NCBI RefSeq assembly: GCF_002104515.1
Contig: NZ_NBOE01000003.1
Coordinates: 62,001 to 126,000 of the forward strand
Length of the DNA: 64,000 nt
Source: Colwellia polaris
Lineage (GTDB): Bacteria; Pseudomonadota; Gammaproteobacteria; Enterobacterales; Alteromonadaceae
Direction of reading: 5' to 3'
Shown here piece by piece: positions 41,981 to 44,935 of this stretch (position 1 is its first letter; each line of letters starts with the position of its first letter). The notes beneath the pieces are model-generated. The model was not told where the DNA came from. It searched no databases and saw only the letters and a list, made by a program, of their open reading frames with translations. Made by a program: the position numbers and the translations under genes.

Positions 41981-42748
41981 TTAAAGTGAAATGCCTTGCC
42001 ATTGAAATTCTTTGAATACCTGCTGCCATTGTGCGTCAAATTCAGCTTCAACTTTCACTGCCTTCTCTGTAACAGGATGTATAAATTCAACTTGCTTTGC
42101 TATTAACATTAAACGTTTAAAACCAAAGTACTCACCAAAAAATGGATTTTGTTTATTATCGCCGTAATTTATATCACCAATAATTGGATGACGTAAATGC
42201 GCTAAATGCCGCCTTATTTGATGACGTCTGCCCGTATGAGGCTGACATTGAATTAGCGAATACCTAACACTAGAATACTTCCCTAACGGCACATCTATCG
42301 TGGCAATAGCTGCTGATTTATAAAACGTTGTTGCACTTTGTGGCGCTTTGTCGCGACTCACATCCTTATCACCTAAGTCATCTAGCTTTTCTTTTAATGG
42401 ATGTTCAATAACGCCTTGATCCACTAAATGCCCTCGCGTTAGTGCATAATAAGTTTTCTGAATTTTTCTCTCGGCAAATGCCTGTCCCATTAGACGAGCA
42501 ATATCTTGAGTTAATGCAAAAAGTAAAACACCTGAGGTAGGTCTATCTAAGCGATGTAAAGGGTAAACATATTGCCCGATTTGATCGCGAACCAGCTGCA
42601 AAGCAAAATAAATTTCATCTTTGTCCATAAAGCTTCGATGAACAAAAAGCCCTGCCGGTTTATCAACAGCGACTAGGTACTCATCTTGATATAATATTTT
42701 TAATACAGGCTTATCTATAATTACTGAACCGGCATTTTCAATTGTCAT
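41981..42748 (-). CDS. truC: tRNA pseudouridine(65) synthase TruC
   Basis: RluA-family pseudouridine synthase that modifies U65 of some tRNAs. The 255-residue protein contains LKILYQDEYLVAVDKPAGLFVHRS and the catalytic block YPLHRLDRPTSGVLLFAL with the active aspartate. SLIQCQPHTGRRHQIRRHLAHL follows. The sequence aligns by eye with E. coli TruC (YqcB), including VRDQIGQ before the catalytic motif. It is convergent with the small lipoprotein gene and divergent from the DUF3549 gene. In E. coli truC-yqcC lie beside csrB, which fits the RNA found at 44361-44609. Confidence 0.94.
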   Translation of the reverse strand: MTIENAGSVIIDKPVLKILYQDEYLVAVDKPAGLFVHRSFMDKDEIYFALQLVRDQIGQYVYPLHRLDRPTSGVLLFALTQDIARLMGQAFAERKIQKTYYALTRGHLVDQGVIEHPLKEKLDDLGDKDVSRDKAPQSATTFYKSAAIATIDVPLGKYSSVRYSLIQCQPHTGRRHQIRRHLAHLRHPIIGDINYGDNKQNPFFGEYFGFKRLMLIAKQVEFIHPVTEKAVKVEAEFDAQWQQVFKEFQWQGISL

Positions 42749-42968: not shown

Positions 42969-44015
42969 ATGAGTTCATCTTCAGACACTATTTCTTCAAT
43001 TTCCGCATTACTGAGCTTATCAGATTCTCAATACCGTGTTTTTGATATTGGCCGTAGAGTAGATAAAATTTCAAAAGAGCAGTTTGCTAAAATTGAAGCG
43101 GCAGAGCTAGCATATCCTTATCCTATTCAAGGGCATGCCCTACTCGCCATAGCGTTTTGGCAAAAGCAATCAACGAGTCCCTATTTATGGTTTATCAAAC
43201 TGCCATTAGACGAAAGAGGTTTATTAAACCAAGGTGCAAGAAACCACTTTATAGCGATTATTATTGAAGCTTTAGGTGATGATCTCTCTGTTAATCCCAC
43301 CGAGCAACAAGAAGCCTTATTAAAGAAAAATCCCTACCATTTTACGCCTGCCCAATATAAATTGGCGGCAGTAAATAGTGTTGTATCTACCTCACTCAAA
43401 CAAGTAGCAAGCAAATTTTATCCGCCAGCCCAACATTATTTATCGGGCGTTAACGGTTGGGAAGCCTGGCAAACAGTTGGCGTGCAAGGCTTATCAGATT
43501 TTGCCTTTAGATTAGACGAAGCTCAAAACAATCAAATTTTAACCAATGCTTTACCATACCTTCCTGAAGAAGTTTTAGTGCCTTTATGCTCTGCGCTTGA
43601 AAATATTAACTTAGCTCCAGCAGTAATAAAACAATTAACAACACGTTATCAACAAGAAGAAGAAAAAGCTGAAGTTAATAATACAATTTTGATAGCCTTG
43701 TTACGTGCATTAGCGTCAAGTACGCAGCACCCTTACAGCCAAGAATTTATCGCTAATTTAATCGAAAACACCGATTTAGCTGAAGATGCACTTATTATTA
43801 TCGCAGGTCGATTATGGCCAACATTAATTGATGAAAAGTTATTATTTAGCTACTTAGAGCAATTAATAAAAGATAACGACAACGCATTATTTTCGGCAAT
43901 ATTTAAAGATTTAGTTGCAATACCTATGATTCGCCCCGTACTATTGCAAGCCATTCGTTCACCAAAACGCAGCCCTGAATTGGCCAAAGCCATTGGCATG
44001 CTTTTTAAACCTTAG
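42969..44015 (+). CDS. DUF3549 family protein
   Basis: A 348-residue protein recognised as DUF3549 from its start (SSISALLSLSDSQYRVFDIGRRVDKIS), the FAKIEAAELAYPYPIQGHALLAIAFWQ block and WFIKLPLDERGLLNQGARNHF. No signal peptide or membrane helix is evident, and the C-terminal half looks like a helical repeat. The family is confined to gammaproteobacteria, and I know of no assigned function. It is divergent from truC. The following DUF3301 gene starts 7 bases after its stop, so the two are cotranscribed. Confidence 0.85.
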   Translation: MSSSSDTISSISALLSLSDSQYRVFDIGRRVDKISKEQFAKIEAAELAYPYPIQGHALLAIAFWQKQSTSPYLWFIKLPLDERGLLNQGARNHFIAIIIEALGDDLSVNPTEQQEALLKKNPYHFTPAQYKLAAVNSVVSTSLKQVASKFYPPAQHYLSGVNGWEAWQTVGVQGLSDFAFRLDEAQNNQILTNALPYLPEEVLVPLCSALENINLAPAVIKQLTTRYQQEEEKAEVNNTILIALLRALASSTQHPYSQEFIANLIENTDLAEDALIIIAGRLWPTLIDEKLLFSYLEQLIKDNDNALFSAIFKDLVAIPMIRPVLLQAIRSPKRSPELAKAIGMLFKP

Positions 44016-44022
44016 GCATTTC

Positions 44023-44325
44023 ATGGAAAACATTTATTACCTACTCTTTATTGGTTTACTCTTCTGGTATTTTGTCTATTTACGCAAAGTATCAGAGCAC
44101 GCGCGCTCGCACGCTGACCAATATTGTAAACAAGAAAACTTACAATTTTTAGCGATTGCCCGCCAATCAAGTCGATTTAGATTTTCTAAACGTTTAGGAC
44201 CACACTGGTTGAGTAGTTTTGATTTTGAATTTAGTGGTGATGGTGAATCAACTTACCATGGCACAATGACATTACGTGGTTATAAGCTCGATAATATAGA
44301 TACCCCGCCTTACCGAGTGAATTAA
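44023..44325 (+). CDS. DUF3301 family single-pass membrane protein
   Basis: A 100-residue protein with one N-terminal membrane segment (IYYLLFIGLLFWYFVYL), then a basic cytoplasmic domain ARSHADQYCKQENLQFLAIA and a beta-rich C-terminus (FDFEFSGDGESTYHGTMTL). This layout is that of DUF3301. I chose the ATG at 44023, which starts just after the DUF3549 stop. An in-frame TTG 30 bases upstream inside that gene is unlikely. Function unknown. Its transcript would end at the symmetrical terminator at 44368-44386, shared with the RNA encoded on the other strand. Confidence 0.83.
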   Translation: MENIYYLLFIGLLFWYFVYLRKVSEHARSHADQYCKQENLQFLAIARQSSRFRFSKRLGPHWLSSFDFEFSGDGESTYHGTMTLRGYKLDNIDTPPYRVN

Positions 44326-44360
44326 TAAAATAGCTATTATGGGTGGCGTAAAAAAGAGAC

Positions 44361-44386
44361 AAAAAAAAAGCGACATAATGTCGCTT
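44361..44386 (-). terminator. Bidirectional terminator shared by the CsrB-like RNA and the DUF3301 gene
   Basis: A perfect nine-pair hairpin (44368-44376 with 44378-44386) has a T-tract on the minus strand (A-run at 44361-44369). On the plus strand it is followed by TGTTTTTTG, so it can stop both transcripts. Confidence 0.88.
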
Positions 44387-44609
44387 GTTTTTTGATTATT
44401 TAACTATTTCCGTGGTTTACATCCCTTTGTGCTTATTCCATAAGCGCTCTTTTCATTCCATGAAAAAAGTTGCATCGTGCATAACATCCGTATTTACCTT
44501 AAGCAAAATAACCTTAATTCCATTTACTAATTCATAAATCCGTTTAATCCATAAATACTAACCGCAGTCGGTAAATACTTGGTTTCCCTAACGCTTTGTC
44601 TCCTAGACG
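44361..44609 (-). ncRNA. csrB: CsrB-family regulatory RNA (CsrA-sequestering sRNA)
   Basis: No gene fits this stretch, but the minus strand has ten GGA triplets in about 250 bases (plus-strand TCC at 44409, 44422, 44437, 44457, 44487, 44519, 44539, 44548, 44585 and 44601). Most are in the form A(C/U/G)GGA, such as AUGGAUU, ACGGAUU and AUGGAAU, the CsrA-binding motif. The 3' end is a perfect hairpin AAGCGACAT/ATGTCGCTT followed by a run of seven or more U. A TATAAT box (44616-44621) would start the RNA with GUCUAGGAGAC. CsrB, CsrC and RsmZ RNAs sequester CsrA/RsmA through such repeats. In E. coli csrB is also near truC (between yqcC and syd), so position supports the call. Confidence 0.82.
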
Positions 44610-44615
44610 AAATTA

Positions 44616-44621
44616 ATTATA
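44616..44621 (-). promoter_or_regulatory. -10 box of the CsrB-like RNA
   Basis: A consensus TATAAT is present on the minus strand. The region 17 bases upstream (CTATTA) is a poor -35 box, as expected for a promoter that needs an activator such as UvrY/GacA. Confidence 0.6.
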
Positions 44622-44779
44622 CTTCAAGCGTTGTTTTATAATAGACGGGGCAAACTAAAAGAAATTATTTTTTTTCATTACTTACAAAGAAATACATTAA
44701 TAAACCTTAATTATCAGCAGCTTAAAAACTTAACAGGTCAATAAACTCAAGTTTATTCCTATAAACTAACAACATATGC

Positions 44780-44789
44780 AGACATGTCT
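44780..44789 (-). promoter_or_regulatory. Candidate UvrY/GacA-type upstream activating site
   Basis: The perfect 10-base palindrome AGACATGTCT lies in the minus-strand context GTAAGACATGTCTGCA, resembling the GacA/LetA boxes (TGTAAG-N6-CTTACA; TnAGAAATTTCTnA). Its centre is about 176 bases upstream of the predicted RNA start, the usual distance of such sites in rsm/csr RNA promoters. Confidence 0.45.
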
Positions 44790-44935
44790 TACGTACTGTT
44801 GGCCGAATTAGGTCAATAGTTTACATTTTGCGTTATTTGTCGTTTCACGAAAACATCAGATCAAATCAAATTTAATCTGCTCGAAAATACATCGGTTTAA
44901 GCTAAAAATTCCGTTAAAATTCTAATCTTCCATTT

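Follow-up and report, generated by a model that had tools for sequence, protein, structure and literature searches.

In Escherichia coli K-12 the csrB gene is found in the order truC-yqcC-csrB-syd, on the truC strand. Its inverted repeat, TGTGAGAGATCTCTTACA, is centred at -183/-182 according to the available sections of PMC4682653. Two CsrB RNAs, CsrB1 and CsrB2, are known from Shewanella oneidensis, where the accessible part of PMC3171408 describes both as UvrY-dependent, and the available text of that paper and of PMC6262261 indicates that sibling csrB genes in Shewanella and Vibrio can differ in regulation. No description of a csrB gene from the genus studied here was found in the literature, as far as the accessible text of PMC5471319 and PMC3840354 extends, and an earlier prediction for Colwellia is possible (in a 2006 prediction paper).

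Here we describe a locus on the minus strand, at 44361-44608 of the window (the whole 64-kb stretch of DNA that was analysed, which belongs to the genome of a Cognaticolwellia or a very close relative). With a probability of roughly 0.85, we read it as csrB2, the reduced partner in an old pair of csrB genes, whose product would be a UvrY-activated decoy for CsrA, with csrB1 as the main decoy. The features of the locus and its surroundings are as follows.

44361..44608, minus strand: csrB2, predicted CsrA-sequestering small RNA of ~248 nt (10 GGA and held-out covariance model)
44409..44603, minus strand: span of the ten GGA motifs, first G at 44603, 44587, 44550, 44541, 44521, 44489, 44459, 44439, 44424 and 44411
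44368..44386, minus strand: intrinsic terminator stem-loop, then a U run at 44367-44361 (sequence and scan)
44616..44621, minus strand: -10 box TATAAT of the csrB2 promoter (sequence)
44776..44793, minus strand: UvrY/GacA-type inverted repeat, core AGACATGTCT at 44780-44789, centre 176 nt upstream of the start
44023..44325, plus strand: DUF3301 gene (PF11743), convergent neighbour, common to relatives
42969..44015, plus strand: DUF3549 gene (PF12069)
41981..42748, minus strand: truC, tRNA pseudouridine synthase, 50% identity to E. coli TruC over 239 aa

The locus and its flanks

The relation of the locus to truC is the same as that of csrB in E. coli. The initial annotation had placed E. coli csrB near truC, and it does adjoin, with yqcC in between. 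The stretch was also correctly described as free of genes: no open reading frame of at least 60 aa occurs between 44326 and 44935. The ten minus-strand GGA triplets that had been reported, mostly in an ANGGA-type context, were recovered on counting, with nine ANGGA and one AGGA in the minus strand of 44358-44611 and TCC at zero. After dinucleotide shuffling, at least ten GGA were present in 3 of 5000 sequences and nine ANGGA in none of 5000, and the locus is unique within the window, on both strands, in having at least ten GGA per 254 nt. The perfect hairpin and U run previously read at the 3' end correspond to the stem of 8 bp at 44368-44386 and the U run after it. This stem is kept across the eight orthologues described below (98.7% of cells paired) and is terminator-like on the plus strand as well; the DUF3301 gene may make use of it in that direction. 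The whole RNA is more stably folded than its shuffles (z -2.6), of which 5 in 200 fold as well.

Upstream, the TATAAT had also been read correctly, whereas the start proposed with it, 44609, is one base off: judged by eye, the likely start is G44608, 7 nt past the box. A promoter scan paired this TATAAT with no -35 box. The 10-bp palindrome that had been placed about 176 bases upstream is AGACATGTCT, centred exactly 176 nt above G44608. Its flanks are imperfect, matching the symmetric UvrY site at 13 of 18 positions, and since three further places in the 64-kb window score just as well, the palindrome is unremarkable on its own. Its evidential weight comes from its conservation in relatives. 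The repeat reads TGTAAGANATRTCTGYA in the seven aligned relatives and CGTAAGACATGTCTGCA in the window, and is clearer in the former; the window copy has one weak half, and in its good half a T-to-C change that is absent from all seven relatives. The centre of the repeat in these relatives lies ~174-189 nt before a GTC start, as derived from the alignments. The retention of the box in relatives, at a distance like that in E. coli, makes control of csrB2 by UvrY likely. A scan of the genome with a strict UvrY pattern, allowing two mismatches or fewer, returned 125 matches as against 122 for the reversed control and is thus uninformative, apart from one exact site that is taken up below.

Detection in related genomes

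Seven further genomes of the genus (G002, G004, G005, G010, G011, G014 and G015) have an RNA of the window type adjoining the DUF3301 gene. The named relatives with the same loci, Cognaticolwellia aestuarii, C. mytili and Colwellia sp. BRX10-3, are grouped in the window's own genus, so that the organism is placed in Cognaticolwellia or very close to it. A covariance model built from these seven orthologues, with the window held out (model R1), found the window locus at 44365-44611 with 196.9 bits (E 3e-52). Elsewhere in the window it scored 30.2 bits on the reverse strand of the csrB2 terminator and 20.4 bits at the best other place. Over 58 genomes of the family, R1 recovered csrB2 in the window genome at the held-out score and in G015, a model member, at 220.5 bits; its other matches, at 22-41 bits, score at the background level given by terminators alone and were left out of the csrB2 count. 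L045 and L063 do match where csrB2 would be expected, but at 36-39 bits, within this background, and their matches are therefore supportive only. On E. coli csrB the model scored 7.6 bits, and direct comparison of csrB2 with E. coli csrB gave no similarity past short words. A BLAST search of the csrB2 region against plasmids gave no match.

At gathering thresholds, Rfam found neither CsrB (RF00018) nor CsrC (RF00084) in the window. At a relaxed threshold the CsrC model reached 12.4 bits there, at the terminator, and 23.2 bits in the orthologous locus L137, against a gathering threshold of 61. We discounted the relaxed matches to MicX, patAB and sraA in the window, which are due to the terminator. 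Searched over the relatives, RF00018 gave sub-threshold matches alone within the family; this survey was not used for csrB counts because its filters lose weak matches. In one genome of the order (G031:C1:4533806-4536939; L099, L116 and L122), five csrB matches above the cut-off occur within ~3 kb, forming a csrB array.

Two candidate carriers of csrB2 were set aside. The match in L064 lies at a different offset, in a locus where the whole-locus scan was without a cluster. L144 (in G001) has different neighbours and was dropped from the alignment. The latter (G001:C1 near 892412), from the same genus, is RNA-like, rich in GGA and accompanied by a UvrY-type repeat, and is perhaps a relocated csrB copy.

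Conservation of the RNA

The eight orthologues, the window included, carry 8-14 GGA each, and TCC is at zero in all eight. Outside the terminator, the conserved fraction of aligned comparisons was 0.68 for GGA, the median over 47 triplets being 0.27; only GTC (n = 70) ranks higher, and GGA is the top common triplet. Of the ten GGA in the window RNA, three stand in exactly the same place in 8/8 orthologues and, with a slack of four columns, five are in place in 8/8, the remaining five being found in 3 to 6 of the eight. The consensus structure has 35 pairs, eight of which changed on both sides, compared with 3.8 in shuffles (1 of 500 shuffles as high), in a test whose structure was derived from the same alignment. 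GGA is more unpaired than the average position in all eight orthologues, yet not beyond other purine triplets in G011 and G005. In the predicted fold of the window RNA, six of the ten GGA have at least 2 nt unpaired and four are in hairpin loops.

We also simulated neutral change, by random substitution from the window sequence at the observed divergence. The simulated means were 4.8-7.3 GGA, and the seven intact orthologues, with 8-14, were above the mean in every case (P = 0.000, 0.016, 0.036, 0.037, 0.077, 0.099 and 0.10, values that are not independent, given the shared ancestry of the species). In the eroded copies L033, L034 and L035 there were 4-5 GGA, just as simulated (P 0.46-0.68; 3/3). 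The simulation separates copies that are kept from those that are decaying, and the window copy, with its ten GGA, looks like the kept kind.

A second, fuller csrB gene

Searched over the genome of the window, RF00018 points to one place, on another contig, with 36.2 bits (also below its gathering threshold, 71).

L001 1522-1825 (G000:C28:75802-76129): csrB1, the main csrB (RF00018)

This gene is 304 nt long with 17 GGA, 11 of them AGGA, as against ~248 nt, 10 and 1 for csrB2. Centred 176 nt upstream of it is TGTGAGATATATCTTACA, the sole exact match among those listed in the genome scan with the strict UvrY pattern. By the same measure as above, GGA conservation in csrB1 is 0.88 against a median of 0.62. 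The initial annotation had taken csrB2 to be the organism's Csr antagonist RNA, a claim left unsupported by this second, fuller gene with its exact UvrY-pattern match and by the erosion or absence of the window-type copy in several relatives.

Of the 17 genomes of the genus, 16, that of the window included, carry csrB1; the exception is a genome that is 66% complete. In eight relatives (G002, G004, G005, G006, G009, G011, G014 and G015) csrB1 and the window-type locus are 1.5-2 kb apart, the distances in G006 and G009 being measured to a terminator remnant of that locus. In G005 one gene of ~376 aa separates the two csrB sites; the name 'DUF805' was rejected for the gene in this position, which matches no Pfam family. 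In the window genome and in G010, csrB1 lies instead between a GNAT-like gene (below the Pfam cut-off) and hrpA (identity tested on the copy of the window genome), so that the pair is split in these two genomes, most simply by rearrangement. Because L045 and L063 have GGA clusters at both csrB places (17 and 20 GGA in one, 14 and 21 in the other), the pair probably predates the genus.

Fate of csrB2 across the family

At equal species distance csrB2 is diverging faster than csrB1. The identities are 81 and 92% in G010, 75 and 90% in G005, 73 and 82% in G011, and 70 and 82% in G002, for csrB2 and csrB1 respectively, in a comparison that leaves out G004, G014 and G015, where csrB2 was aligned in part only. 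We scanned 52 DUF3301 loci whole (L032-L083; L084, where an unrelated bacterium matched over 27 residues, was excluded). Six of these have a cluster of ten or more GGA adjoining the DUF3301 gene, and a cluster is found at the csrB1 place in 13. Two further loci, L040 and L041, on contigs of the model members G014 and G015, have nine GGA adjoining DUF3301 and R1 scores of 227 and 220 bits. No csrB-like GGA cluster was found near DUF3301 in 38 of the 52 (L034 and L046-L083 except L063; mostly Colwellia), a count that covers DUF3301 loci alone and includes some that end at contig ends. Clusters of 14-18 GGA occupy the csrB2 place in L043, L045 and L063. The copies in L033-L035 are eroded, with 4-5 GGA and without the box; in L010 and L015 (G006 and G009) little is left but the terminator, and in L037 and L039 there is no trace of csrB2. 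Use by the convergent gene may explain why the terminator stays in the remnants. This series of species, from 14-18 GGA to 8-14, to 4-5 without the box, to a near-bare terminator and finally to nothing, is a natural experiment in the shrinkage and disappearance of a sibling RNA.

It could be argued from the same series that csrB2 of the window is itself a csrB copy in early decay, recognisable but ineffective, with csrB1 carrying the function. Its faster divergence in all four genomes compared, the eroded, near-bare and vanished copies in relatives, its single AGGA and the substituted box in the window would all agree with this. Nevertheless, we regard early decay as unlikely: all ten GGA have been kept, GGA is the most conserved common triplet while TCC is absent, the stem changes are compensatory, the -10 box and terminator are intact, and copies that are truly eroded look different, having 4-5 GGA and no box. 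It is far more improbable that the locus encodes an unrelated small RNA or belongs to an extended DUF3301 terminator in which GGA is incidental. The lack of an Rfam match and the bidirectional terminator would allow this reading; against it stand the GGA statistics and conservation, the UvrY-type box at the right distance in relatives and a position shared with E. coli csrB and with the GGA clusters of L043, L045 and L063.

A proposed circuit

The regulators expected of a Csr system are encoded in the genome of the window: one CsrA (92 bits), one match to UvrY, with 69% identity to the E. coli protein, and one near-full-length match to BarA (42%, residues 4-915 of 918), five weaker kinase matches to BarA being left uncounted. 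Upstream of csrA in this genome, L085 (180-1030) contains several long near-repeats of accgaggcaccgag-like units, as judged by eye.

The GGA statistics, the held-out model, the conservation of GGA, the covariation, the kept box, the synteny with truC and the presence of CsrA, UvrY and BarA make csrB2 very probably a CsrB-type, CsrA-sequestering RNA. The class first proposed for it, a CsrB-type RNA near truC that is probably under UvrY control, is well supported by the GGA excess, the 196.9-bit match, the conservation and the synteny; the Rfam check suggested at the same time fails, as csrB2 lies below the gathering thresholds and a model built from its orthologues was needed to detect it. It is a real gene of a known kind, a reduced sibling csrB to which Rfam is blind at its thresholds. 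What the sequences show is its anatomy, GGA conservation, covariation and synteny and the presence of the regulators; its transcription, CsrA binding and UvrY dependence are inferred.

With csrB2 as a reduced but selected sibling, the following circuit can be proposed. Phosphorylated UvrY would bind the inverted repeat 176 nt upstream and turn on the csrB2 promoter. The predicted RNA of ~248 nt would end at the terminator and offer about ten (A)NGGA motifs, several of them in small hairpin loops. By analogy with the CsrB family, these GGA loops would bind several CsrA dimers and so keep CsrA off its mRNA targets. The main decoy would be csrB1, to which csrB2 would add capacity or a different regulatory input; it would still be under selection in the lineage of the window and dispensable in others. 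A complete BarA-UvrY-CsrA-CsrB system can in this way be placed in a Cognaticolwellia genome, one whose two csrB genes both escape the Rfam models at gathering thresholds.

A UvrY-type box outside the csrB genes

A UvrY-type repeat is also found upstream of a conserved ORF of ~60 aa, in L129 (G000:C6 near 121345-121685, minus strand) and in L173-L183. The repeat, TGTAAGACATRTCTYAA, lies 158-261 nt before the ORF. Among 59 genomes of the family the protein was found in 11, from nine genera, and in each of the 11 the best match to the repeat covers 13-17 of 18 positions; random 450-nt stretches of the window reached 14 in 0 of 2000 cases and 13 in 2.3%. The end of typA is upstream in five of the 11 loci by a simple motif, and typA was confirmed in L129. 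In the loci inspected, a second small ORF follows. Searches with the ~60-aa ORF found no Pfam or NCBIfam family. For E. coli, the accessible sections of PMC4682653 report that the repeat is not conserved at weaker UvrY targets and list 19 genes at which a complete or nearly complete repeat was identified in silico. The conserved box suggests that the ~60-aa gene is a candidate protein-coding target of UvrY, and it may be a newer finding than csrB2.

More tentatively, the UvrY regulon in this family might have three conserved direct outputs: csrB1, csrB2 and the ~60-aa gene beside typA with its own repeat. In that case csrB2, whose loops have gone from AGGA to A(U/C)GGA, would be a lower-affinity decoy that is leaving selection as control moves elsewhere. 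We consider this possible, but rather less probable than not.

Relation to CsrB RNAs of other bacteria

Among the closest known systems, CsrB of E. coli (b4408) shares with csrB2 the truC neighbourhood, the orientation to truC and many GGA, together with a UvrY repeat near -180 according to the available sections of PMC4682653. Both also have, by eye, a short stem at the 5' end whose loop contains GGA, and a terminator at the 3' end. However, the E. coli RNA is 369 nt long with 22 GGA, 14 of them AGGA, against ~248 nt, 10 and 1 for csrB2. The csrC gene of E. coli is located elsewhere in that genome, unlike csrB2. CsrC resembles csrB2 in its role as second antagonist and in having a UvrY repeat of lower symmetry, as described in the same part of PMC4682653. 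As in Shewanella oneidensis, where the accessible part of PMC3171408 describes CsrB1 and CsrB2 genes that are close together and have TGTAAGN6CTTACA boxes, two csrB genes are found here; both Shewanella RNAs are predicted at ~420 nt, whereas one of the two genes described here has been shortened, and in the window genome they no longer lie together. Finally, csrB1-csrB4 of Vibrio are likewise sibling copies, arisen by duplication and relocation and differing in regulation (PMC6262261). The available text of that paper stresses the gain of copies, whereas in the family studied here the history of the sibling csrB is mainly one of reduction and loss across species.
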